Assembly: GCA_905479115.1 (NCBI GenBank)
Contig: CAJQLF010000014.1
Coordinates: 1 to 41,027 of the forward strand
Length of the DNA: 41,027 bases
Direction of reading: 5' to 3'
DNA from: an uncultured Flavobacteriales bacterium
GTDB taxonomy: Bacteria > Bacteroidota > Bacteroidia > Flavobacteriales_D > Sanyastnellaceae
Part shown: positions 9,467 through 37,948 of the stretch, piece after piece
How the letters are laid out: every line of letters starts with the position of its first letter
Numbering within the stretch: position 1 is the stretch's first letter
The notes under the pieces: generated by a model
What the model saw: only the letters and a program-made list of their open reading frames with translations
Told to the model about the DNA's origin: nothing
Databases searched by the model: none
Program-made: the position numbers and the translations under genes

Positions 9467-9538
9467 CCTGACCGGAATAGAGAAAATTGATTGAAACCAA
9501 CGATTTGGACCAACCTTCCAAATTCACTTGAAAACGTG

Positions 9539-9570
9539 AGAGCCACCCCTTCTGGGTGGCTCTTTCTTTT
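9539..9570 (+). terminator. Rho-independent terminator after the giant repeat protein gene
   Basis: A perfect 10-bp stem (AGAGCCACCC, 9539–9548, pairing with GGGTGGCTCT, 9554–9563) closes a 5-base loop and is followed by TTCTTTT. It lies 73 bases after the upstream stop and 29 bases before the next ATG, so it separates the two plus-strand genes. Confidence 0.85.
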
Positions 9571-9598
9571 TCATGGCAGTCAACGCGTATTTTTGGGG

Positions 9599-12500
9599 AT
9601 GCTTAAATCTGTGGTCCGGTTCTTTCTGCTTTTACATCTGGCTTTTTCTCTTTCTCCCGTTGCGGCTCAGCACGTGCCGCAAACCCCTTATCGCGCAGCC
9701 AATGATGCGCCCCAGTGGGTGCGCATGATGTACAGTGCTGACGCATCTCCGGAGTTGGTCAGGGAGGCGTACGAAGCACATTACGCTGTATTTCCGTTCG
9801 AAAAAAATAAGGACACCCAGTATTACAAGCGCTGGATGCGCAATGCTGAATTGCCAGCGCCGTCAGTGAGCCGCGCTTATGTGGCGATGCATGCCGAATC
9901 CGCGCAGCGAATGACAGGGCAATGGGAAGAGCTCGGCCCTTGGAGTTATGACCCGGAAGTTGCCATGGAATTTCAAGTACAAAGCCCGGGGGCTTGCCAT
10001 GTCTATACGGTGGAGCAAGCGGCATCGAATCACGAGGTGGTATGGTGCGGCACAGCAACGGCGGGTGCTTGGAAAAGCTCAGACCACGGTGTGCACTGGG
10101 AATTGATGACCCGGGATTTGCCCGTAACCAGCATCTACAGTATTGCCGTTCATCCCCTCGATGAAAACCGGGTGTGGATCGGGGCAGGTTCTGGCCAGCT
10201 TTGGCGGTCGGAAAATGGCGGTTTGACGTGGGAAGTATGCGGGAATTCTACGTTTCAAGGTGCGGACCGATGGTACCGAGATGTGATTTTCTCTCCCGCG
10301 GCGGAAGGCACCGAACCGCAGTTGTTTGCTGCGACCAATTTTGGTTTGTTTCGAAGCGAGGATGGAGGTGAAACCATGGTTCAGGTCATGTCGGGCGAGT
10401 ACATGGAATTGGCTTTTCACCCTGCCGATCCCGCCATTTGCTATACCGTCCAATTACTGGGTGAAAGCACGGTGTTCAAGCGTTCAACAGACGGAGGATT
10501 GACCTTCGTTTCCGGTGCAACGGGCTGGCCATCGGTAGGGCCAGATGACGGTCAACGACGGTGTGAAATCGCCGTGACGCCAGCCGATCCAGATCGCGTG
10601 GTCGTGCTCGCTTCGGGGAGCACGACCGACGGTGGGGGGCTCTATGGTATCTACCAGAGTTCAGACGCGGGAGCATCGTTCGAGTTTATGTGCTGCGGAG
10701 ACGGACCAGGTGGTCCTTGGTCCGAGGGAACGAACCCCAATATTTTGGGTTGGAGCGGGGATGGCACCGGAGACGGGGGGCAATATTATTATGACTTAGC
10801 GCTTGACGTCAGCCCCACGGATGCGGACAGGCAGTTTGCCGCTGGTATCAGCGTCTGGAGATCGGAGAATGGCGGGGTAGACTGGTCGCTCAATGCCCAT
10901 TGGGTCACGTGGGCGGGCGAATTCACCCATGACCGCTATACGCATGCCGATGTGCATGACATCCAGTTCTTCACCCGAACGGATGGAACCGTTGACCTGT
11001 GGGTCGCCTCCGATGGAGGATTGTTTTATTCCGCAGACCAGGGAGATCACATCGAACCGCGCATGTACGGATTGCACGGAACCGATTTTTGGGGATGGCA
11101 AGCGGGTTGGAGAGGGCCGGAGGTCATGGTGGGCGGAACGTACCACAACGGGACCTTGATCCGCAACGGAGAACTGTACCATTGGGGCAAAGACAGTGAC
11201 AGCTCGGGCGGCTGGTTGGCGGAATTGGCCGGAGATAATTTCAGGGGATTTATCAACCCGGGTGATGCGCATTTGGGCTACCACGATGGAGGGGCCTTTC
11301 GCTTCACCGAAGACCGGTTTGATCGAATTGATCCACGGCCATTTGATGGATCCAAAAAACCCAATACAGGCTATTGGTTTGGCGAATATGGAAACCTCGA
11401 GTGGGATCCGACCTGCTACAATTGCATGTATTCCCCGGTCGGATCTGAGCTTTGGTATTCGGAGGATGGCGGGGCTTCATGGGCCTTGGTCCATGACTTT
11501 GGAGGAGATAAAATCATTTCGGTGAAAGTGAGTCCCCGTGACCGCAGCCGCATTTACGTGTCGCACAAACAGAGCGGTTCGGTTTGGCGGGTGCACCGAT
11601 CAATGGACGCTGGACAAACCTGGGAACTTGCTTCACCCACGCCCGGTGAAAACGGAAACAACAGCAATCAACCGATGTACCTTGATGTGGATGGAACGAA
11701 CCCTGATCAACTCTGGTGCGTTTTGACCGGGAACCAAAACGGCCACAAGATTTTGGCCTCTTCCGATGCAGGCGAAACATGGCAGGATTGGAGCACGGAG
11801 ACGATTGCGGGTGAACGCGTTGTGAGCCTGGCGCATCAGCGGGGATCCAATAGCGGTGTCTACATCGGAACGACTCAAGCGGTTTATTATCGGGATGCCG
11901 AATTGGAAGACTGGGTGCTGTACAACTCAGGACTTCCGATGATCACGGTTGGTACATTTTTGCAAGCAGATTATTGCGGCGGGCACATCCGTGTCGCCGG
12001 AACCCGCGGGGTGCATCAAGCGGATTTTTTCGCGCCTTCTGATGTGCTCTCTGGATTCATGGCCGACCGTACGCACTTGAATTTGGCGAGCCCGTGTCAA
12101 GTTTCTCCCGTGCATTTTTCAGCCGTATCTGTGGTGAACTGTGCGGGTGCAACGTACGAATGGGACTTCGGGTCGGGAACGCTGCTTGAAACCACTGGTC
12201 CGGAGGCCTGGGTTGTTTTTGATGAAGTCGGAACGTATGCCATAACACTTACAGTGACCGATGCAGAAGGCAATGCAGATACGTGGACCTGGGACGAAAT
12301 GATTCAGGTTGTCAATGAACCGGTAGTAGCGGCAACAGGATTTGTGGAGGGGTTTGACGGCGATCAATTTCCGCCCCCACACTGGCGCATGGAAGTCAAC
12401 GGCCACGCCTGGGAGCACGCTTGGGACTTGACGGATTCTGAAAACGGGGTGGCCCAATTCCCCAACTACTGGGTGGATACGCAGGGTATGGCAGATTTAT

Positions 12501-13093
12501 TGATTACTCCCGCCTTCAATCCTACGGGCATGAATCAAGTTTCCTTTGACGTGGCCCACCAAGTTTACGCATCGGCTATCGATGGCTTAGAGGTTTGGGG
12601 CCGTCCTGGTGGAACAGAAGATTGGACCGTATTGTGGACGGCGTATGGCAATGAACTGGCCGTAGACGGATGTTACACCTGGTTTTGGTACGATTTGGGC
12701 GGAACAATTCAATGGGAAAATCACAGCATTGATCTACCAGTTGATTGGACAGATGGAGAGGTCTCGTGCTTAGAAATGGCCTTTGTCAACGTCGGGGGCT
12801 ATGGAAACCACATTTGGATTGACAATGTGAACCTGAATACCCCGAATTCGATATCAGAATTGCTTGACCAATCGCGGATTCAGTTGTACCCTAACCCCAG
12901 TAGCGGTCAATGCACGGTGGTGGTGCCAAGCCATGCTGTCGGAAAACCAGTTCGTATTTTCGACAGCGCGGGCCGGATGGTGCGAATGGACCGAATAGGC
13001 GGGGAGCGGGAAGTTTGGCAGGTGGACTTGCCTGCCGGCCTGTATTCAGTTCAAATTCCAGGGGTGCAAACCTTGCACTGGGCTGTGCAATGA
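9599..13093 (+). CDS. T9SS-exported BNR/Asp-box (sortilin-like) beta-propeller protein with PKD domain
   Basis: About 1,164 aa from the ATG at 9599, chosen because it opens a signal peptide (MLKSVVRFFLLLHLAFSLSP...AAQ) and lies after the terminator; the frame is open back to 9491, but that part encodes the terminator hairpin. Repeated Asp-box motifs of the SxDxGxxW kind (SSDHGVHW, SENGGLTW, SEDGGASW, SMDAGQTW, SSDAGETW and others) mark a BNR/VPS10-type beta-propeller over the first ~800 residues. A PKD-like domain follows (about 828–905, with YEWDFG), then a jelly-roll/MAM-like region (about 910–1085). The T9SS type A sorting domain at the C-terminus begins LYPNPSSG near residue 1096. Such proteins are surface-attached or released. 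The ligand or enzymatic activity is unknown. Its stop overlaps the selU start (ATGA). Confidence 0.9.
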   Translation: MLKSVVRFFLLLHLAFSLSPVAAQHVPQTPYRAANDAPQWVRMMYSADASPELVREAYEAHYAVFPFEKNKDTQYYKRWMRNAELPAPSVSRAYVAMHAESAQRMTGQWEELGPWSYDPEVAMEFQVQSPGACHVYTVEQAASNHEVVWCGTATAGAWKSSDHGVHWELMTRDLPVTSIYSIAVHPLDENRVWIGAGSGQLWRSENGGLTWEVCGNSTFQGADRWYRDVIFSPAAEGTEPQLFAATNFGLFRSEDGGETMVQVMSGEYMELAFHPADPAICYTVQLLGESTVFKRSTDGGLTFVSGATGWPSVGPDDGQRRCEIAVTPADPDRVVVLASGSTTDGGGLYGIYQSSDAGASFEFMCCGDGPGGPWSEGTNPNILGWSGDGTGDGGQYYYDLALDVSPTDADRQFAAGISVWRSENGGVDWSLNAHWVTWAGEFTHDRYTHADVHDIQFFTRTDGTVDLWVASDGGLFYSADQGDHIEPRMYGLHGTDFWGWQAGWRGPEVMVGGTYHNGTLIRNGELYHWGKDSDSSGGWLAELAGDNFRGFINPGDAHLGYHDGGAFRFTEDRFDRIDPRPFDGSKKPNTGYWFGEYGNLEWDPTCYNCMYSPVGSELWYSEDGGASWALVHDFGGDKIISVKVSPRDRSRIYVSHKQSGSVWRVHRSMDAGQTWELASPTPGENGNNSNQPMYLDVDGTNPDQLWCVLTGNQNGHKILASSDAGETWQDWSTETIAGERVVSLAHQRGSNSGVYIGTTQAVYYRDAELEDWVLYNSGLPMITVGTFLQADYCGGHIRVAGTRGVHQADFFAPSDVLSGFMADRTHLNLASPCQVSPVHFSAVSVVNCAGATYEWDFGSGTLLETTGPEAWVVFDEVGTYAITLTVTDAEGNADTWTWDEMIQVVNEPVVAATGFVEGFDGDQFPPPHWRMEVNGHAWEHAWDLTDSENGVAQFPNYWVDTQGMADLLITPAFNPTGMNQVSFDVAHQVYASAIDGLEVWGRPGGTEDWTVLWTAYGNELAVDGCYTWFWYDLGGTIQWENHSIDLPVDWTDGEVSCLEMAFVNVGGYGNHIWIDNVNLNTPNSISELLDQSRIQLYPNPSSGQCTVVVPSHAVGKPVRIFDSAGRMVRMDRIGGEREVWQVDLPAGLYSVQIPGVQTLHWAVQ

Positions 13094-28127: not shown

Positions 28128-28709
28128 CTACTCAGAATGAGAGTCTAATCGGGAGAGCAAAGCGGCCAGTGTCATCTTGTCGACAGGTTCATAGCCGAGG
28201 GGCATGGTAAAGTGATCTTCCTCCCATTGGGAAGGTGCAATGGTCTCTTGCGATTCCATGATCAAGCGGTATGCAGCAGGACCATCGGTAAGCTCGATTT
28301 CTCTCGGTAAAGCGCCGACCGACCAGGCGCAGGGGGCCAGACCAAGATCGAAGGACTCAGGATCATCCGTTTTGTCCAACGGCGGCGGGCACGTCTCCAA
28401 AAGTTCCACGGCATGGCCCAAGAAATGGAAAAGAACATGGTAGGTGTTCGAATCAAATTGTCCGTACCACAGACGTTCAAAACTGGTTCCTTTCTCAACC
28501 AAACGCCAATGGCCCCCATTGGTTTCCCAGACGACTTGCTTGGGCAGGTAATCCCATTTTTCCATCGCCCCAGGGGACGTCTCTGGCACAGCTTGTGCTG
28601 AAGGCACCGCTCGGTATTGAACGCGGCCACTCCAAGTGGGAGGCGACTGCGTCCATGCCACGGAAGCGCAAAGCAGCAAAAGTCCAGCAATCAATGTACG
28701 TTGCGTCAT
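28128..28709 (-). CDS. Hypothetical secreted protein (GLPGLI-like size and start)
   Basis: 193 aa from the ATG at 28709, which begins a signal peptide (MTQRTLIAGLLLLCASVAWTQ) and overlaps the last base of the upstream E1 stop (TAATG). A longer frame starts at 28736, inside the E1 gene. After the signal comes SGRVQYRAV, then a periplasmic domain with three Cys. The overall plan resembles small Bacteroidota secreted proteins that start with a beta-strand 'GxVxYR' segment, but I cannot assign a family. It is likely co-transcribed with the E1 gene. The function is unknown. Confidence 0.7.
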   Translation of the reverse strand: MTQRTLIAGLLLLCASVAWTQSPPTWSGRVQYRAVPSAQAVPETSPGAMEKWDYLPKQVVWETNGGHWRLVEKGTSFERLWYGQFDSNTYHVLFHFLGHAVELLETCPPPLDKTDDPESFDLGLAPCAWSVGALPREIELTDGPAAYRLIMESQETIAPSQWEEDHFTMPLGYEPVDKMTLAALLSRLDSHSE

Positions 28710-30784
28710 TAAAATGCGAGGGTTTCGTCGAGGCATGATCGAACTTTCTCGGAATTGACAAGCACAAACCGTTCCAAGGATTCATTCAAAGGAATGGCCG
28801 GTGTTTCCATGGACCCGACCACTTGAACGGGCGCATCCAAATGCTCGAAAAGCTCTGCACTGATTCGGCCAGCAAGTGCCTGTGCAAAGCTGTTTTGGAC
28901 AGGTTCTTCTGTAACGATCAAGGCGCGGTGTGTTTCCTTCACCCGATGTGCAATGAGGTCAAAGTCGATCGGACTGATCGACCTCAAATCGAGGATTTCG
29001 GTGCGTTCCTCCAATCCGTTGGTCGCTTCTTTAGTCCAATAAACTCCGCGTCCATACGTGATGATGGTGCAGGTACTTTCATCGTTGGTTCCTGTGTGCG
29101 TCAAGCTGCGAACCATTCGGCCTTGCCCAATCGGAACCCGATAATCGGCATCGGGCTCGATGACTTTGGCCTCTTCCGTGCCGGGGATTTTGGACCAATA
29201 GAGTCCTTTGTGCTCCAATACAATGACGGGATTGGGGTCGTAATAAGCAGATTTGAGCAAGCCTTTGAGATCGGCTCCGTTGGATGGGTACACGACTTTG
29301 ATGCCGCGAATATTGGCCAATATGGATTCGATGCTAGAACTGTGGTACGGACCTCCAGATCCATAAGCCCCGATGGGTACTCGAATTACGCTGTGCACAG
29401 GCCATTGCCCGTTGGAGAGAAAATAACTTCTGCTCAGCTCCGTGAACAATTGATTCAGTCCGGGCCATAAGTAATCGGCGAACTGTACTTCCACAATAGG
29501 GCGCAACCCCACAGCTGACATGCCTGCCGTAGAGCCAATGATGAATGCTTCTTGGATGGGCGTGTTGAAGACCCTGGAATCCCCAAATTTTTGTGCGAGT
29601 GTCGCCGCCTCTCGAAATACCCCGCCCAAACGTCCTCCTACATCTTGTCCGTACAAAAGGGCCTCTGGATGGGCTTCTAGGATTTCTTGCATCGCGTGCA
29701 GAGCGCAATCGACCATCAGGGTCGTTTCATCTCCGGACCCGACGCGCTGCCCCGTCTCTTCTATAATTTCGGTTGGTGCCAAAACATGGGCAGCCAACTT
29801 ATTCGGATCGGGTTCGTCGTGCTGCTGGGCTCGATCGAATGCGGCTTGCACCTCGTTCGCTGCGTCGCTCTGGATTTGATCCAATTCTTTCTCGTCTATG
29901 CCGAGTTGAATCAAGCGGTTGCGCAAGGCGGTCAGGGGGTCACGCTTTTCATGTTCTTCCAGATCGTCGCGGTACCACTCTTTGCGGACTCCACTGGTGT
30001 GGTGTCCGAGAAGCGGAACATGCGCGTGCACCAGCACCGGCGCACGCTGTGTTCGAACGTGCTCGAACGCAGCGTTCATCGCAACCATGCTTTCTTCCGT
30101 ATTGGCACCATCGACCTCGATCAATTTAATCTGGGGAAATGCTTTGGCCAAGGTTGAAGCGTCATGGGAACGAATCTCGGAGGCGTGGGCGGAAATATCC
30201 CATTCGTTGTCCTGTACCAACCAAATAATGGGAAGTTTGCGCAAGTCACTCATGTGCAGGGCCTCACTCACTTCCCCCTCCGTCATGGCTGCATCACCGA
30301 TGGAGCAGACGACCACAGGTGGGGCGCCTTCTCGGTCGTGGGGGATGCCCTGAATTTCTTTGTACTGCAAGCCCAATGCCACTCCAGCTGCGGGAATGGC
30401 CTGCATTCCGGTGGCACTGCTTTGGTGGGGAATTCGCGGTAAATCAGGCCGGTTTAAGGAGGGGTGGCTGTAATACGTCCGTCCACCGCTAAAGGGATCA
30501 TCTCCTTTGGCCAGCAATTGGAGCATCAGATCTTCCGGTTCCATGCCCATCGTCAACAGCAAACAATCATCCCGGTAATAGGCGCTCAGGTAATCCTGGT
30601 TTTCGAGAAGCCGGCCTGCGGCCCACTGAATGGCTTCATGGCCTCGAGCACACGCGTGCACGTATTTGGAGGTCAATCGCGCATTGGCTTCGTACAGGTC
30701 GCTCATGGCTCGGGCAGTGCTCATGGTGCGAAATGCCTGAATCAATGCTTTGACGCCGGATTTGATGGTGGAAGCTTCCTTCAT
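28709..30784 (-). CDS. Fused alpha/beta E1 subunit of a 2-oxoacid dehydrogenase complex (branched-chain type)
   Basis: 691 aa in one chain. The N-terminal half is the alpha subunit, with ARGHEAIQWAAG, YYRDDCLLL and the ThDP–Mg motif GDAAMTEGEVSEALHMS...LVQDNEW (the usual GDG/NN appears as GDA/DN). The second half, from about residue 355, is the beta subunit, with LYGQDVGGRLGGVF, RVFNTPIQEAFIIGSTAGMS, EVQFADYLWPG and PYHSSSIESI. Such alpha–beta fusions are known in Bacteroidota and usually annotated as 2-oxoisovalerate dehydrogenase E1. The enzyme decarboxylates branched-chain 2-oxoacids and passes the acyl group to E2 lipoyl domains. E2 and E3 are not in the window. It is divergent from dapF, 53 bases apart. 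Confidence 0.92.
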   Translation of the reverse strand: MKEASTIKSGVKALIQAFRTMSTARAMSDLYEANARLTSKYVHACARGHEAIQWAAGRLLENQDYLSAYYRDDCLLLTMGMEPEDLMLQLLAKGDDPFSGGRTYYSHPSLNRPDLPRIPHQSSATGMQAIPAAGVALGLQYKEIQGIPHDREGAPPVVVCSIGDAAMTEGEVSEALHMSDLRKLPIIWLVQDNEWDISAHASEIRSHDASTLAKAFPQIKLIEVDGANTEESMVAMNAAFEHVRTQRAPVLVHAHVPLLGHHTSGVRKEWYRDDLEEHEKRDPLTALRNRLIQLGIDEKELDQIQSDAANEVQAAFDRAQQHDEPDPNKLAAHVLAPTEIIEETGQRVGSGDETTLMVDCALHAMQEILEAHPEALLYGQDVGGRLGGVFREAATLAQKFGDSRVFNTPIQEAFIIGSTAGMSAVGLRPIVEVQFADYLWPGLNQLFTELSRSYFLSNGQWPVHSVIRVPIGAYGSGGPYHSSSIESILANIRGIKVVYPSNGADLKGLLKSAYYDPNPVIVLEHKGLYWSKIPGTEEAKVIEPDADYRVPIGQGRMVRSLTHTGTNDESTCTIITYGRGVYWTKEATNGLEERTEILDLRSISPIDFDLIAHRVKETHRALIVTEEPVQNSFAQALAGRISAELFEHLDAPVQVVGSMETPAIPLNESLERFVLVNSEKVRSCLDETLAF

Positions 30785-30837: not shown

Positions 30838-32892
30838 ATGCACTTCAATTGCTGGAAATGGGAAGGGACGGGCAATGATTTTGTCCTATTTGACCGACGC
30901 GATTGGCCGGAATTGCCTGATGCCGGCGAAATTCATCGGCTTTGCGATCGAGACGGACCGGTGGGAGCGGATGGGGTCATCTTTTTTCGACCGATGGTCG
31001 AACTGCGGGCCGAAGGGATGGCAACAGATTGGGAAATGGACTACATCAATGCAGATGGTTCGAGGTCTTTTTGTGGCAATGGAAGCCGTGCGCTCTTCTC
31101 TTTCCTGCGAGAAAAAGGATGGATGCCTCAGAAGGGAGGAGTCTTGCATGCCTGCGACGGTGCCCATGCGGTATGCTGGAATGCGGCCCTTGGCGAGCCC
31201 GGAGTCGAAATGCGTTCAGTGGCTCCACCTCGTGTGGTTCCAAGTTTTTTGGGGGGCGATCGAGCGCATTTCGTGGATACGGGATCGCCTCATCACATCG
31301 AGTGGGTGGACGAGGTGAGGCAATTGGATGTGATTCAACAGGGTCGAGCGATTCGAAATGCGTCAGAATATGCGCCCGATGGGACCAATGTGGATTTCGT
31401 TCGGGTCGCAGGAGACGGCTTGCTGGAGATGCGCACCTTCGAACGCGGAGTCGAAAATGAAACGAAAGCCTGCGGAACTGGCGCAGCTGCAGCTGCCATT
31501 GCGGATTACTCGGAGCGGGGAGGAAGCCTCGAACGCCACATGGCCATGCCAGGTGGGAGGCTCACCGTGCAGGTGCAGCCCCCCGATGCAAAGACGGGAC
31601 AATTTGATGGAGTCTGGTTATTTGGAGCGGCAAGGCAAGAAATGGAAGGAATTTGGGATGCAGCCAAAGGCCGATTGATTGCGGCGATGGTGGCGATGTT
31701 GGCTATATCTGCGGTCTCGGCTCCACTGAATACAATAAAAGCGGCGCCTTGGACAGACCAAGTCCGTGTCTCGGTGCTGACCGGCTCGCCGGGTCCTGAG
31801 CTCTACAGTGCTTGGGGACATACCGCCATCCGGGTGCTTGACATGGGGCAGGTGCCACCTGTTGATTTGACATACAACTATGGAACCTTTGAATTCAGCG
31901 AAGGATTCTACCTGCGGTTCTTGAAAGGAGAATTAAATTACCGACTCGCGCGCTCTTCTTTTTCAGCATTCCAGCTCGAATACATGCGGGAAGGACGGGC
32001 GGTTTTGGAGCAGCCCCTCGCTTTGGAGCCTGATGATGCCCGGGCGCTTGTGGCTTATTTGGAATGGAACCACTTGCCTGAAAATCGCGTCTATGCATAC
32101 AAGTTCTTTGAAGACAATTGTTCTTCCCGCGTCCTGAATCTCCTCAATGCTGTTTTTGGTGAACGCTGGGATAGCGGCTGCGCCGGCGATGTCGCATCCG
32201 GGGTAACTTACCGCCAAGCGATTCGCCCCTACATCGTTGGAGATGCCTGGACCGAGGCGGGAATTGATTTTATTTTGGGGCCGCACGCCGATGAGGTCAT
32301 GCCACCCTGTGGTTCCAGTTTTTTGCCGGACGGTTTGATGGTCCAATTGCTCCAAGGAAGCTTGGACGGTCGCACGGTTGCTCAGCAGCCATCTGAACTC
32401 TTGCCTCCTGAGCGCTCGTGGTACCGAGGTGTGGCATCGAACCCCATTTCCTCTCCTCCTTTTTGGGCGTGGATGCTGTTGCTGTGGTCCTTCATTTGGT
32501 CTATTCGGCGATTGGTGCAGCACAGAGCGGGAGTCGCAGTCCCCCGATGGGAACGAAGGCTTGGGAAGGGAGTTCAACTTCTTGCGGGGACATTGGGTGT
32601 GCTGTTGGCGTTGATGTGGATGTTCACGGATCATACGGACACTTGGGCCAATTGGAATTTAATCTGGGCCTCACCTGCATTGATATTGCTCATTCGGAGA
32701 GGAGGCAGGTTAAAGCCTTGGCAGGATCGCACCCGATGGGGGCTCTCCGTTGCGATTTTGCTGTTCTTGTTGGCTTTACCGTTTGTTCCGCAATTCGTAT
32801 CTTTCCTCTGTGCATTGGTCGCCTGGTCTGTTTGGTTGAGTTTGGATCCGTGGGATGTGCCTGGCGGATGGCCGATGCGAACTAAAAAATGA
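30838..32892 (+). CDS. dapF: Diaminopimelate epimerase fused to an Lnb/DUF4105-type membrane protein
   Basis: 684 aa in one frame. Residues 1–265 are DapF: WEGTGNDFVLFD at the start, the first catalytic Cys (about 79) in SFCGNGSRA and the second (about 212) in ENETKACGTGAAA, so epimerisation of LL- to meso-diaminopimelate for peptidoglycan and lysine looks intact. Residues ~280–300 form a hydrophobic segment that would act as a signal anchor. Residues ~305–530 are a DUF4105 domain (LTGSPGPELYSAWGHTAIRV ... FFEDNCSSRVLNLL), with candidate active-site His (~328) and Cys (~429). Four or five helices follow to the end. DUF4105 plus C-terminal helices is the layout of Lnb, a lipoprotein N-acyltransferase reported in Bacteroides. 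Cytoplasmic DapF, then a membrane anchor, then a periplasmic domain is topologically possible. A lost stop or a base error could also join two genes. Confidence 0.85.
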   Translation: MHFNCWKWEGTGNDFVLFDRRDWPELPDAGEIHRLCDRDGPVGADGVIFFRPMVELRAEGMATDWEMDYINADGSRSFCGNGSRALFSFLREKGWMPQKGGVLHACDGAHAVCWNAALGEPGVEMRSVAPPRVVPSFLGGDRAHFVDTGSPHHIEWVDEVRQLDVIQQGRAIRNASEYAPDGTNVDFVRVAGDGLLEMRTFERGVENETKACGTGAAAAAIADYSERGGSLERHMAMPGGRLTVQVQPPDAKTGQFDGVWLFGAARQEMEGIWDAAKGRLIAAMVAMLAISAVSAPLNTIKAAPWTDQVRVSVLTGSPGPELYSAWGHTAIRVLDMGQVPPVDLTYNYGTFEFSEGFYLRFLKGELNYRLARSSFSAFQLEYMREGRAVLEQPLALEPDDARALVAYLEWNHLPENRVYAYKFFEDNCSSRVLNLLNAVFGERWDSGCAGDVASGVTYRQAIRPYIVGDAWTEAGIDFILGPHADEVMPPCGSSFLPDGLMVQLLQGSLDGRTVAQQPSELLPPERSWYRGVASNPISSPPFWAWMLLLWSFIWSIRRLVQHRAGVAVPRWERRLGKGVQLLAGTLGVLLALMWMFTDHTDTWANWNLIWASPALILLIRRGGRLKPWQDRTRWGLSVAILLFLLALPFVPQFVSFLCALVAWSVWLSLDPWDVPGGWPMRTKK

Positions 32893-34436
32893 ACGACGTG
32901 CGTCCATTGACTCGAGGAAAGGTGCTGGTGCTGATTGGATGTGCAATCATGGTGCTTGGCGGTTGCAATCGGCAACCCATCACGTGGGAGACCAACATTG
33001 CATTGCCCTTGGTTGACCAGGTTTGGACATGGTCGGAGGTGATTCAAGGTGCTTCGGATGATTCTACGCTTGCGGTTGATGTTGGGTCACCGGGAACGAT
33101 TGTGTTCAGCGGTCCCGTCGCTGAATGGGGCATCGAATCCCTGACGCAGTTACCAGACACCATTGTGTCGCAAGAATTAACCCCGGATTTTGACGGTGGA
33201 CCCTTTGCTGTTCCTCCAGGAGCCGTTTTGTTGGACACGGAAGAGGACATCGTTTTTCAAGGAATCGACCAAGCTTTTACAGGGATTGTCTTAGAATCAG
33301 GTCGAATCGAATATTTCGTGGAAAGCTCAACGAATGGGTACGTAGAGCTCTTCTATGCATTCCCGAGCGTCACCATTTTTGGACAACCGGTGGAATTGCA
33401 GGTGGTCTTGCCGCCAAGCGATGGCGTTGCTTTTGAGACCCGCGAAGGCACCATTGACCTCAGTGGAGCGGTGATTGATTTGACCGGCGTTTCAGGGAAT
33501 GAAATCAATCGAATTGCGAGCCAATTAATCATCGGAACGCCGAGCAACATCAATGACACCGCGCAGGTGTATGGGTCCGATAGCATCCGAGTGCAAATGC
33601 ATTTTCAGGAATTGCTCGTCCGTGAAGTGTCTGGTTACTTTGGGCAAGAGACCATAGGTTTTGATGTGGAGCAGCAGGTGTTTGATCCCGTTGATTTCCC
33701 TTCCGGATTCGTGGAAATAAATCCAACACGGGCCACCTTGCAATTTCGAAATACCATTGCGGCTGACCTTCGTTTGCAGTTGGATGCCATGTCGGTGGAC
33801 GGTTTGCAAGTAACGCATCCTTCCTTGGGCCTTCCTCAATTGATTTCGCGGGCCGCCTGGGAAGATGGAGCGCTGGAGCCGGCTATCTGGGAGATGGACT
33901 TATTGGAAACAGCACCATCTATTTTTGAATTGTTGAGCTATTTGCCGCAATGGGTTCAGGTCGTTGGAGAGGGTCTTTTGAACCCGCTGGGCGATGTGTC
34001 GGGCGGTCATGATTATTTCGATACACGTGTCCCACCTGCCTTGTACTTGGATTTGGAGTGGCCGTTGGTGGGGACAATTGAAGACTTTCAAATAGCGCGT
34101 TCGCTGGAACTGTCCCCCACCGATTTGCCGGGTTTTAACGGGGATTTATTGGTTCGATTGACCAATGGATTTCCTGTGGAATGGACCTTCAACGCGGTCT
34201 GGCGGTTTCCGGGCACCGGGATCGACCCCGTGTTCATAGAAGGATTGGTGCCCGCCTTCCCAGGAGGTGAAATGCTCGAGTTGCGTATTCCCGTGGATGA
34301 ACAGCGATTGGCGACCGCTGGGGTGATTGACGTGGTTGCATCCATGCGATCCGAAGGGCCGGTGGAATTTACCGGTCGAGAACGCATGAGATTGGAGTTG
34401 GGCGTCGAAGGAATGTATCAAGTCGAAGTCCCATGA
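32889..34436 (+). CDS. Large hypothetical lipoprotein
   Basis: 515 aa, starting with an ATGA overlap on the previous stop. The N-terminus is a lipoprotein signal (VLVLIGCAIMVLGGC, lipid Cys at about 26). The rest is beta-rich, with no helical membrane segment and many Val/Ile/Asp/Gly alternations, and starts ITWETNIALPLVDQVWTW after the anchor. I recognise no family motif. Its position between the Lnb-like enzyme and an outer-membrane barrel suggests an envelope role, and the 4-base overlaps on both sides indicate one operon. As a lipoprotein it would itself be a substrate for N-acylation. Confidence 0.8.
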   Translation: MNDVRPLTRGKVLVLIGCAIMVLGGCNRQPITWETNIALPLVDQVWTWSEVIQGASDDSTLAVDVGSPGTIVFSGPVAEWGIESLTQLPDTIVSQELTPDFDGGPFAVPPGAVLLDTEEDIVFQGIDQAFTGIVLESGRIEYFVESSTNGYVELFYAFPSVTIFGQPVELQVVLPPSDGVAFETREGTIDLSGAVIDLTGVSGNEINRIASQLIIGTPSNINDTAQVYGSDSIRVQMHFQELLVREVSGYFGQETIGFDVEQQVFDPVDFPSGFVEINPTRATLQFRNTIAADLRLQLDAMSVDGLQVTHPSLGLPQLISRAAWEDGALEPAIWEMDLLETAPSIFELLSYLPQWVQVVGEGLLNPLGDVSGGHDYFDTRVPPALYLDLEWPLVGTIEDFQIARSLELSPTDLPGFNGDLLVRLTNGFPVEWTFNAVWRFPGTGIDPVFIEGLVPAFPGGEMLELRIPVDEQRLATAGVIDVVASMRSEGPVEFTGRERMRLELGVEGMYQVEVP

Positions 34437-35593
34437 ATATCCGAATTCTACTGCTCATTGGATGGCTTATGGCGCCAATGTGGGTTGCCGCCCAGTTGGA
34501 CAGCATTCCATGGACGCTCACAGTTTGGGGGCAACAGCGATCCAATTCGTTGGACCGGGATATGGGACAAAAACTCTTTCGAGGTGGACACATCACTCCC
34601 GAAATGGTGGCTTCTTCCAGCGCAGCTCAAGGTCAGGATATGGGAGCACTGGGCTTCACAACGGGGGTGGATTGGCGGTGGACTTCTCTTAAAGCGTGGA
34701 AGAATTCGAATGCTCGGATCTGCGGATCTATTCAGGGGAAATGGGTGGGCGATTCGAGGTGGACACCGGAGCTGTTAGATTTGGTTTTTTCAGGCAACGC
34801 TGGGCATTTGGGACGATGGGATGTCTTGGACGGTTCCCGCGTTCGGACTGCGGCTTGGATGAATGCTGCCATAGGCCTCGAAGGACAAAATCAAAACCGC
34901 ATTGAGATTGGGCTGGTGTACCTGCCAGCGTACACCGGAGTGCACATTCGCAACGGATATTTCCATGTGGACGAAGACATCGACTCTTTGCAGGCTTATA
35001 TGCGAGCTGATGCGGAAGTGAGTCAGCGGGCTGCCTGGGGCAGTGCCATCAATGCCGAATGGCATTTTTTGCGCGAAGAAGCGCCTTTCGCTTTTCATTT
35101 GAGGATTCAAAATCTCGGATGGGCGGTTGTGCCAAAAATGACGCAGTGGAAAGTGGACACCTTGATCGAGACCACAGGGTTGACGTTTCAGGGACCGGAA
35201 TGGTCATTGGAGGCAGTTCAGCAGGAAGGGTGGGGAGCAGGTTTTGCTTCGGTTGATTCGAATAAGACAGTCGTGCGCATGCTTCCTGCCCGGCTCGACG
35301 CATCTTTTGAATACCCGCTTGGCCCACGTTCTGGATGGGATGTGCAAGTGCAGTTGGGAGAATGGATGCCCTTGCCTCGAGCGATCACGGGATACCGAAG
35401 GGCCATTGGAAAGCAGTGGCAAGCCGGGATCCAAATGATTGCAGGTGGCTGGGGACGGCTGCGTCCAGCGGCTTGGGCCCGCTGGCGTGTACCCGGTGAG
35501 CACGCCATCGTTATTTACCTCGAAGATCCATTTGGATGGGGAACTCATTCTGCCTTCGGTAGAGGCATCACCCTTCAATTCCAGAACATGTAA
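34433..35593 (+). CDS. DUF5723-like outer-membrane beta-barrel protein
   Basis: 386 aa with a signal peptide (MNIRILLLIGWLMAPMWVAAQ) and an ATGA overlap with the lipoprotein gene. The body has repeated short amphipathic strands rich in Trp, Tyr and Gly (GFTTGVDWRWTSL, QIMIAGGWGRL-like, FGRGITLQFQNM) and ends with an aromatic/polar strand, as in beta-barrels. The start pattern and length resemble the DUF5723 family of Bacteroidota barrels, but my assignment rests on general layout. Probably the last gene of the dapF–lnb operon. Confidence 0.65.
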   Translation: MNIRILLLIGWLMAPMWVAAQLDSIPWTLTVWGQQRSNSLDRDMGQKLFRGGHITPEMVASSSAAQGQDMGALGFTTGVDWRWTSLKAWKNSNARICGSIQGKWVGDSRWTPELLDLVFSGNAGHLGRWDVLDGSRVRTAAWMNAAIGLEGQNQNRIEIGLVYLPAYTGVHIRNGYFHVDEDIDSLQAYMRADAEVSQRAAWGSAINAEWHFLREEAPFAFHLRIQNLGWAVVPKMTQWKVDTLIETTGLTFQGPEWSLEAVQQEGWGAGFASVDSNKTVVRMLPARLDASFEYPLGPRSGWDVQVQLGEWMPLPRAITGYRRAIGKQWQAGIQMIAGGWGRLRPAAWARWRVPGEHAIVIYLEDPFGWGTHSAFGRGITLQFQNM

Positions 35594-35667: not shown

Positions 35668-36504
35668 ATGTCAAGATCAAAAATGGAGAATACATCGAAT
35701 TTGAAGGATGCCGGCTGGACCGCTGGTGACCGGTTGCAGATCATAGCTGGGCCGTGCGCCATTGAAGGCGAAGACATCGCCATGCGTGTCGCCGAAGGAG
35801 TGATTGCAACATGCGCCAAATTGGACTTGCCTGTGATTTTCAAAGGATCCTACCGAAAGGCGAACCGGTCTCGGCTCGATAGCTTTACGGGCATTGGAGA
35901 CGAAAAGGCCCTGGGTATTTTAGCCAAGGTCGGGGAAGCATTTGGAGTGCAGACGACCACAGATGTTCACGCAGCCGAAGAGGCGTCCTTGGCAGCTGCC
36001 TACACGGATGTGCTTCAAATCCCCGCATTTTTGTGTCGGCAAACAGATTTATTGGTCGCTGCAGCACAAACAGGCAAGGTGGTCAACGTCAAAAAAGGCC
36101 AATTCCTCGCCCCTGAGTCCATGGAGCACGCCGTCCGAAAGATTCACGATTCGGGCAACCCAAAAGCTTGGTTGACTGAACGCGGAACGATGTTGGGATA
36201 CCAGGACATGGTGGTGGATATGCGCGGCTTTCCTGTGATGCGTCAATACGGTCCTGTCATCGCTGATATTACCCATAGCTTGCAGCAGCCCAACCAACAA
36301 TCCGGCGTTACCGGGGGGCGTCCAGAACTTATTGCGACGATAGGCCGAGCAGCGGTAGCGGCGGGTGCCAACGGTGTTTTCATCGAAACCCATCCCGAGC
36401 CATCGCAGGCGCTTTCTGACGGAGCCAATATGCTGCCGCTGGACCAATTGGAGGGATTGCTTGCGCAGTTAAAACGGGTGCACGAAGCGGTGCAGCATGG
36501 ATAG
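35668..36504 (+). CDS. kdsA: 3-deoxy-8-phosphooctulonate synthase (Kdo-8-P synthase)
   Basis: 278 aa from the ATG at 35668; ATG 35683 is an alternative. The TIM-barrel motifs are present: IAGPCAIEG with Cys30, FKGSYRKANRS, QTTTDVH, IPAFLCRQTDLL, KKGQFLAP, TERGTMLGYQDMVVDMR and IETHPEP. The Cys in AGPC is the metal ligand of the metal-dependent class (Aquifex type) rather than the Asn found in E. coli KdsA. It condenses phosphoenolpyruvate with arabinose-5-phosphate, the first step to Kdo for lipopolysaccharide, and so supports a Gram-negative outer membrane. The 3' end overlaps the next gene by eight bases. Confidence 0.96.
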   Translation: MSRSKMENTSNLKDAGWTAGDRLQIIAGPCAIEGEDIAMRVAEGVIATCAKLDLPVIFKGSYRKANRSRLDSFTGIGDEKALGILAKVGEAFGVQTTTDVHAAEEASLAAAYTDVLQIPAFLCRQTDLLVAAAQTGKVVNVKKGQFLAPESMEHAVRKIHDSGNPKAWLTERGTMLGYQDMVVDMRGFPVMRQYGPVIADITHSLQQPNQQSGVTGGRPELIATIGRAAVAAGANGVFIETHPEPSQALSDGANMLPLDQLEGLLAQLKRVHEAVQHG

Positions 36505-37948
36505 AATACGGGCCTTTGCATGCCTTGCGTTGACATGCTTTATGGCATGGGTCAGCGTGACCTCTGCGCAAACGGACACCCTCGAAGTGCGCGTATTGGG
36601 TGGACAACAGGATGACCGGGGTCAGCAATTGGTCGAATTGGCCAACGGAGATGTCCTCTCGATCAGCTCTACCAATAGCACAACGGATGACGAACCGCGG
36701 GGCTGGTTGCATCGCTTTGATTCGGCTGCGCACGTTATTTGGGAGGCGACAATCGAAGATGCGCCTTTGCTGCAGCCAGTCGATGCTATGGAACACGGCG
36801 ATGGGCTCCTTACGGTATTCGGAATGCGATTTGGTGGCGTTGGCAATGCGTACGACTGGGGATGGTACACCTTAGATGCGAACGGTGCTTTTTTGACGCA
36901 AACTACTTGGGGCACGGACGCATGGGATTTGCCCACACGGATCATGTTCCACAACGATACGATGTGGTCGGTGGGTACCTCTTACATTTCGGGCAACGGC
37001 GATGTTTGGGCAACGGGCCACATTTGGATGGACGGTGCTTGGATGCTGGTGCATGAGGGCAATGTGGCTTCGATGCCCGAAGAGGAAGTAGCGGTAGATG
37101 CAGCATTTCAGGGTGATACCCTGCTCGTTTTGAGCTCGCTGATCGAGGAAAGTGCTGCACGCTGGCAGGGGGTGAATGCGGCATCGGGTGAGGTGCATTG
37201 GTCGCATCAAAGCAGCTGGGTAGATCCAACGGCTGCTGTAGCCATCGATGTGAATAGCACAAATGCAGTAGCGCTGATGAATGTGTCGACGGCGGATGGA
37301 ATGCGGCTTGCATTTGCAGTGGTAGATTCCGCGGGGAATCTGGTCCTTGAGCAATTGCCTGGTTCCGGTGTGGACATCGCCGGATGCGATGTGCAGTGGT
37401 ATAGCCCCACGGATTTTGCCACAGTCTCAGTCACCAATGAATTGGGGCTGGGAGGAGAAGAAATCCTGTTCTCACGTTGGTCTGCGGTGAGTGGCGCCTG
37501 GCAAGGTGGCCCATCCATCGGTACGCCTTGGGATGAGGTGCCCAGCGCCATGCTGCACGATGAAGATGGACGATTGTGGGTGCTGGGATCGACGAATGGA
37601 TATTCCAATGGCCGCGATGATGTGTATTTGGTTCAAATTCCGAATGCCTCCATTTCAGATTATACCAACAACGTAGAAACGAACATTTTGGACACCACCT
37701 TGTCCATGGAAGAGCCCGTGTTTGAAGCTGGATTTTCTGTCTATCCAAATCCAGCGACGGACTCCTTCACTTTAGAAGGGGTGGACTCGGCTGGGTTTTG
37801 GAAGATCTTCAATGGAACAGGCCAACCGGTGAGGTCGGGGAGGGGATCTCAAGGATGGGTTAGCGGCTTACCGCCCGGATCGTATTGGCTCGTTGTGGGC
37901 AATGAACGCGGCGGAAGCATGGATGCTGTGCCGCTTTGGATTCGCTAA
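36497..37948 (+). CDS. T9SS-exported hypothetical protein (repeat beta-propeller-like)
   Basis: 483 aa, overlapping the kdsA end by eight bases. A signal peptide (MDRIRAFACLALTCFMAWVSVTSAQ) is followed by repeated strand blocks with DTLEVRVLGGQQDDRGQQLVEL, GWLHRFDSAAHVIWEATI and HDEDGRLWVLGSTNGYSNGRDDVYLVQI. These resemble the propeller-like 'delayed/dispersed' repeats in Bacteroidota surface proteins where each block reports a value, but no catalytic motif is visible. The last 70 residues form a T9SS type A sorting domain starting SVYPNPATDSFTLEG, so it should pass the outer membrane and be anchored or released. Its function is unknown. Confidence 0.85.
   Translation: MDRIRAFACLALTCFMAWVSVTSAQTDTLEVRVLGGQQDDRGQQLVELANGDVLSISSTNSTTDDEPRGWLHRFDSAAHVIWEATIEDAPLLQPVDAMEHGDGLLTVFGMRFGGVGNAYDWGWYTLDANGAFLTQTTWGTDAWDLPTRIMFHNDTMWSVGTSYISGNGDVWATGHIWMDGAWMLVHEGNVASMPEEEVAVDAAFQGDTLLVLSSLIEESAARWQGVNAASGEVHWSHQSSWVDPTAAVAIDVNSTNAVALMNVSTADGMRLAFAVVDSAGNLVLEQLPGSGVDIAGCDVQWYSPTDFATVSVTNELGLGGEEILFSRWSAVSGAWQGGPSIGTPWDEVPSAMLHDEDGRLWVLGSTNGYSNGRDDVYLVQIPNASISDYTNNVETNILDTTLSMEEPVFEAGFSVYPNPATDSFTLEGVDSAGFWKIFNGTGQPVRSGRGSQGWVSGLPPGSYWLVVGNERGGSMDAVPLWIR

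Follow-up and report, generated by a model that had tools for sequence, protein, structure and literature searches.

A DapF–Lnb gene fusion with a signal-peptide-like segment at its joint in one lineage of Flavobacteriales

The lipoprotein N-acyltransferase of Bacteroides is Lnb (Armbruster et al. 2024 PNAS, as cited in PMC12994826 and PMC13103446), an identity on which both citing papers agree. The first of these equates DUF4105 with Lnb, relates it to permuted NlpC/P60 enzymes with a conserved His and Cys, and describes Lnt as repeatedly displacing DUF4105 proteins across genomic contexts (PMC12994826); the word 'dapF' is absent from its main text. Within the openly licensed literature on DapF fusions, DUF4105 and Lnb, we found no described case of a DapF–Lnb fusion and no paper combining DapF and DUF4105, which agrees with the initial annotation of this locus, whose author was not aware of one. 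The papers that this literature lists on internal signal peptides deal mainly with viruses and with secretion in general. Precursors that give rise to two proteins are exemplified by FbcH of Bradyrhizobium japonicum, a cytochrome b/c1 precursor that is cut at an internal signal sequence. Here we analyse a DapF–Lnb fusion within a 41,027-nucleotide stretch of DNA from an uncultured Flavobacteriales bacterium (the window), together with its relatives.

The fused frame and its domains

Positions 30838–32892 (+) form a single open frame of 684 amino acids without an internal stop. The protein matches DAP_epimerase (PF01678) in two stretches (90.8 bits against a Pfam cut-off of 34.7) and passes the NCBIfam DapF equivalog TIGR00652 (157.8 bits; cut-off 114.65). 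Both of its presumed catalytic cysteines are present (Cys79 and Cys212). Its second part passes the Pfam cut-offs for Lnb_N (PF13387; 76.6 bits against 22.2) and 5TMH_Lnb (PF25221; 39.6 bits against 25.2), and retains both residues presumed to be catalytic in the permuted NlpC/P60 fold, His328 and Cys428. The initial annotation had described an uninterrupted frame with a complete DapF and both its Cys, followed by a DUF4105/Lnb part with a His and an NC(S/T)R-type Cys, and these features are all recovered. The second half matches PF13387, a check which that annotation had suggested; against the NCBIfam Lnb equivalog NF051878 it scores 169.9 bits, where the cut-off is 550. Three unfused relatives also fall short of this cut-off (212.5–283.5 bits, 3 of 3), so the shortfall does not come from the fusion alone. 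Judged by its domain content, 30838–32892 is a complete DapF joined to a complete Lnb-type lipoprotein N-acyltransferase (Table 1).

Table 1. Features of the fused gene and the two genes downstream, in window coordinates
Feature	Position	Strand	Remarks
DapF domain, diaminopimelate epimerase, residues 1–272	30838..31653	+	PF01678, TIGR00652
DapF Cys79 (CGNGSR)	31072..31074	+	Cys in 35/35 fused proteins
DapF Cys212 (ACGTG)	31471..31473	+	Cys in 35/35 fused proteins
ATG, residue 269, possible separate Lnb start, not conserved	31642..31644	+	Sole ATG between DapF end and core
Hydrophobic core, residues 280–293, LIAAMVAMLAISAV	31675..31716	+	Contains ATG at 31687; matches N-terminal signal peptide of unfused lnb
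Out-of-frame TGA named in the initial annotation	31676..31678	+	Relatives give no sign of a gene end there
Possible signal peptidase I sites, residues 294–303	31717..31746	+	Weaker than in many relatives
Lnb_N periplasmic domain, residues 307–441	31756..32160	+	PF13387
Lnb presumed catalytic His328 (GHTAIR)	31819..31821	+	His in 34/34 fused proteins with a filled column
Lnb presumed catalytic Cys428 (DNCSSR)	32119..32121	+	Cys in 34/34 fused proteins with a filled column
Lnb transmembrane domain	32452..32838	+	PF25221, residues 539–667
Next gene, 515 aa, lipoprotein-like N-terminus (LGGC)	32889..34436	+	No Pfam match; start overlaps fusion stop by 4 bases (ATGA)
Second downstream gene	34433–35593	+	No Pfam match; overlaps 32889–34436 gene by 4 bases (ATGA)

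An AlphaFold model of the fusion, built on an alignment of 7 sequences, is usable for DapF (pLDDT 54–87 by block) and poor outside it (mean pLDDT 52.7), the Lnb half included. At low confidence, it places helices at residues 540–563, 570–595, 602–611/613–618, 626–646 and 654–668 in the transmembrane part, and draws the joint as one long helix (265–291).

A search of the bacterial family covered 114 genomes and located the fusion in four genera, namely g1 (the genus of the window, 22 genomes), g9 (2), g14 (14) and g3 (11). One protein from each of the three other fusion genera was compared with Pfam: DapF and Lnb_N were matched in all three and 5TMH_Lnb in two.

The two downstream genes, 32889–34436 and 34433–35593, probably form an operon with the fusion and share its transcript. 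Scanning for promoters and terminators returned 1 promoter-like site, where shuffled sequence averaged 3.7, and 10 terminator-like sites, where it averaged 7.9. On the other side, dapF–lnb adjoins another fused pair, a 691-aa frame (28709–30784, −) that unites E1_dh (E1 alpha) with Transket_pyr/Transketolase_C (E1 beta) of a 2-oxoacid dehydrogenase. Elsewhere in the window lie a reprolysin-like metallopeptidase (475–2973, −) and two genes with a possible type IX secretion sorting tail, one sortilin-like with PKD (9491–13093, +; tail below the Pfam cut-off) and one whose tail is below the Pfam cut-off and over that of NCBIfam (36497–37948, +).

The joint between the two enzymes

Unfused DapF proteins end about 10 residues past a GPA-type motif, and the N-terminal segment of unfused Lnb reads as a signal peptide in 20 of 21 loci (no start was located for genus g36). 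The fusion joins these two elements, the DapF end and the Lnb signal peptide, with few residues between them (about 13 more in g9). In a hydropathy segment search, the hydrophobic core had a median length of 12 residues in 35 fused proteins and 13 in the signal peptides of 20 unfused Lnb proteins, whereas the transmembrane cores in the C-terminal parts of these fused proteins have a median of 22.5 (n = 66, some being two merged helices). Downstream of the core, 29 of the 35 fused proteins carry the motif [AVSTLI]xA[not P]; shuffling the residues gives 18.7 ± 2.6, and none of 2,000 shuffles scored as high, in a test that ignores kinship. The unfused set, with kinship likewise ignored, passes moderately (13 of 20 against 9.1 shuffled; 63 of 2,000 as high). 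The window protein offers VSA followed by Pro, and IKA before Ala, the latter being its sole pass of the strict motif. As far as such features can tell, the joint looks less like a plain anchor than like the signal peptide that once began the lnb product and has become internal. This revises the 'hydrophobic anchor' of the initial annotation to a probable lnb signal peptide with a short core and signal-peptidase-like sites above chance.

The same annotation had DapF tethered to the membrane. In the natural topology, as we infer it, DapF would indeed be cytoplasmic and Lnb periplasmic; a lasting tether, however, has to compete with a second possible outcome, because the core is short and signal-peptidase-like sites occur above chance. 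An uncut signal anchor, holding DapF permanently on the inner membrane face with Lnb in the periplasm, accounts equally well for the frame and the domains, and it gains from the weak cut sites of the window protein and from the 6 of 35 fused proteins in which the strict motif is missing. The core is nevertheless shorter than the transmembrane cores of these proteins, and a permanent anchor would have no need of the signal-peptidase-like sites seen above chance in four genera. We consider it unlikely, yet deserving of serious attention, that the anchor stays uncut.

The two parts might also be separated at translation, with Lnb made additionally or mainly from an internal start codon, so that most of the protein would exist as two separate enzymes. 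Between the DapF end and the core, an ATG is found in 12 of the 35 fused genes, including that of the window (ATG 31642), and in 8 of the 11 from genus g14; counting ATG, GTG or TTG, the number rises to 27. Ancestral-type ATGA/GTGA overlaps between dapF and lnb, detailed below for unfused relatives, imply in addition that translation was coupled. The candidate start positions nevertheless vary between genera, and internal initiation as a general rule was rejected, 23 of the 35 genes having no ATG and 8 none of the three codons in this stretch. Moreover, none of the 35 fused proteins has a stop codon between its DapF and Lnb parts, so the long product is expected in any event. A second start is possible in g14 and at the window ATG 31642, judging from the codons present; that it supplies most of the Lnb strikes us as distinctly improbable.

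Distribution and origin of the fusion

The same junction recurs in related genomes. The frame is open across it in 42 of the 49 genomes of the four genera (19 in g1, 2 in g9, 14 in g14 and 7 in g3), at 38–63% identity. In nine of the 42 (G016, G021, G002, G020, G134, G133, G127, G099 and G106) the match is partial yet crosses the junction; these matches begin or end at or near a contig end, those of G002 and G134 beginning at base 1 or 6. In G129, also one of the 42, a TGA lies within the match only after residue 671, among the last residues, and the junction frame is open. The remaining seven genomes consist of two with contig-end fragments that stop short of the junction (G013, whose contigs break right at the joint, and G007) and five without a match (G005 and G100–G103). 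The two-gene arrangement on one contig was seen in none of the 49. A sequencing or assembly frameshift joining two normal genes, raised as a caution in the initial annotation from a TGA in another frame (31676–31678) and an ATG in frame (31687), both of which are where it placed them, is refuted by these relatives and has next to no probability left. The DapF–Lnb fusion is real and not an assembly error, and it is fixed in the sampled members of one clade.

Beyond the four genera, none of the other 65 family genomes (57 with matches) spans DapF and Lnb among the matches listed. Samples of the order (399 genomes) and the phylum (395 genomes), both of which also contain family members and in which a DapF–Lnb match would be expected near the top, likewise hold no DapF–Lnb outside the family among the matches listed. 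One candidate from these samples, G575, was rejected: its match covers query residues 192–655, and its 494-aa frame is Lnb only, with the DapF part unmatched. At this locus (L089, G575:C1:3072700-3075200), about 100 residues without a DapF match lie upstream of a signal-peptide-like segment, probably as an out-of-gene reading. Loci from metagenome bins gave five full fusions and one part; they include contigs of some genomes already counted and were not added.

PF13387 is found once in the genome of the window and in 99 of the 114 family genomes, always as a single copy except in G002 and G075, where the second is a short piece. DAP_epimerase is matched in 20 of the 22 genomes of the window's genus, in each case within the fused frame or contig-cut pieces of it, and no stand-alone DapF was seen in these 20. 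With a single PF13387 and no separate DAP_epimerase, the fused gene is therefore the only detected source of DapF and Lnb in the genome of the window. The Lnt N-domain exceeded its cut-off in none of the 114 family genomes (one match, 20.3 bits in G087, contains three stops and is below the cut-off), in a search that as a control detected it in 7 of 14 named genomes; Lgt is present. The presence of Lgt and an Lnt N-domain under the cut-off lend indirect support to a role of the Lnb part in N-acylating diacyl lipoproteins. Across 11 close pairs, dN/dS is below 1 in every computable part: 0.07–0.23 for DapF, 0.02–0.13 for Lnb_N (one pair saturated), 0.14–0.60 for the joint, from 23–37 codons per pair only, and up to 0.57 for the rest of the fusion (one pair without codons, from a truncated row).

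A concatenated tree of 54 rows was built, to which DapF contributed the residues up to 272 and Lnb those from 304 onward, the columns of the joint being excluded; it took 29 of the 35 fused rows, and two of the six left out are truncated. The fused rows form one clade (support 100/99) that requires a single change, as it does in every one of 200 bootstrap trees. Lnb alone recovers this clade with a support of 99 and DapF alone weakly (61). Its sister is genus g10 (support 100, quick tree version), in which dapF and lnb are separate and, in 5 of 6 genomes examined, overlap by the 4 bases of a GTGA stop/start; in the sixth, G115, the lnb start lies, measured from the end of the dapF stop, either 11 bases upstream or 1 base downstream. 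An ATGA overlap of the two genes is also found in examined members of g4, g7, g8, g37 and g38, and a further gene lies between them in g2, g5, g6, g12 and g16. The loci with an intervening gene in these five unfused genera are L053, L054, L060, L064, L075 and L084; the one such gene checked in Pfam has a weak BadF/BadG-type ATPase match, below the cut-off. The tree fits a single fusion event of neighbouring dapF and lnb in one Flavobacteriales lineage, and the path likely ran from neighbours through a coupled overlap to the fusion.

A proposed precursor and its place among known systems

Considering the joint, the frame and the tree together, we think it probable that the gene encodes one precursor whose DapF part remains cytoplasmic while Lnb is exported by the internal signal peptide, which would probably be cut by signal peptidase I. 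After a single ancestral event had fused the adjacent genes, the product would be made co-translationally as one chain. Its DapF part (residues 1 to about 272) would fold in the cytoplasm and serve meso-diaminopimelate synthesis, and the former lnb signal peptide would direct the following domain to the Sec translocon, delivering Lnb_N to the periplasm and the transmembrane helices to the membrane. Lnb would there add the third acyl chain to lipoproteins. Signal peptidase I would most likely cut past the short core. Lnb would then be free, and DapF would keep a short membrane-seeking C-terminal tail, from which it may be released by signal-peptide-degrading proteases; without cutting, DapF would be tethered to the membrane. 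One-chain translation, the cutting of the signal peptide and both enzyme activities are here predicted from sequence.

In its fullest form, this precursor would be a polyprotein of core envelope metabolism: the only detected copies of two enzymes, obligately co-translated and split by signal peptidase I, with DapF at the membrane and in fixed ratio to Lnb, a state that four genera would have retained after a single event. We hold this fuller picture to be evenly poised between right and wrong. What is new is that a probable signal peptide sits inside the chain, with a cytoplasmic enzyme before it and a periplasmic one after it; the component parts were already known. Lipoprotein maturation would be linked to the supply of meso-DAP through one precursor. 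If it is cut, the fusion is a rare bacterial polyprotein with enzymes of two pathways and two compartments; if it is not, DapF is membrane-bound. The lineage also allows neighbouring genes, overlapping genes and fusion to be aligned on a tree, and annotation pipelines should be warned that dapF and lnb found in these genera are one gene.

Compared with stand-alone DapF (TIGR00652), the fusion has the same full-length domain, with both catalytic Cys and a score over the curated cut-off, but it lacks the DapF stop codon and continues into a C-terminal signal peptide and Lnb. With Bacteroides Lnb it shares the Lnb_N and 5TM domains, the His and Cys, and a family in which the Lnt N-domain stays under the cut-off; it differs in that its signal peptide is internal, behind DapF, and in its NF051878 score (169.9 against 550). 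FbcH differs in that its products share one complex, whereas the halves of the fusion, separated by a predicted cut, would serve different pathways, one of them being soluble and cytoplasmic. The two are alike in that one gene gives, or here would give, two proteins with an internal signal sequence between them; in the fusion, one frame over both parts is conserved in 42 of 49 genomes.
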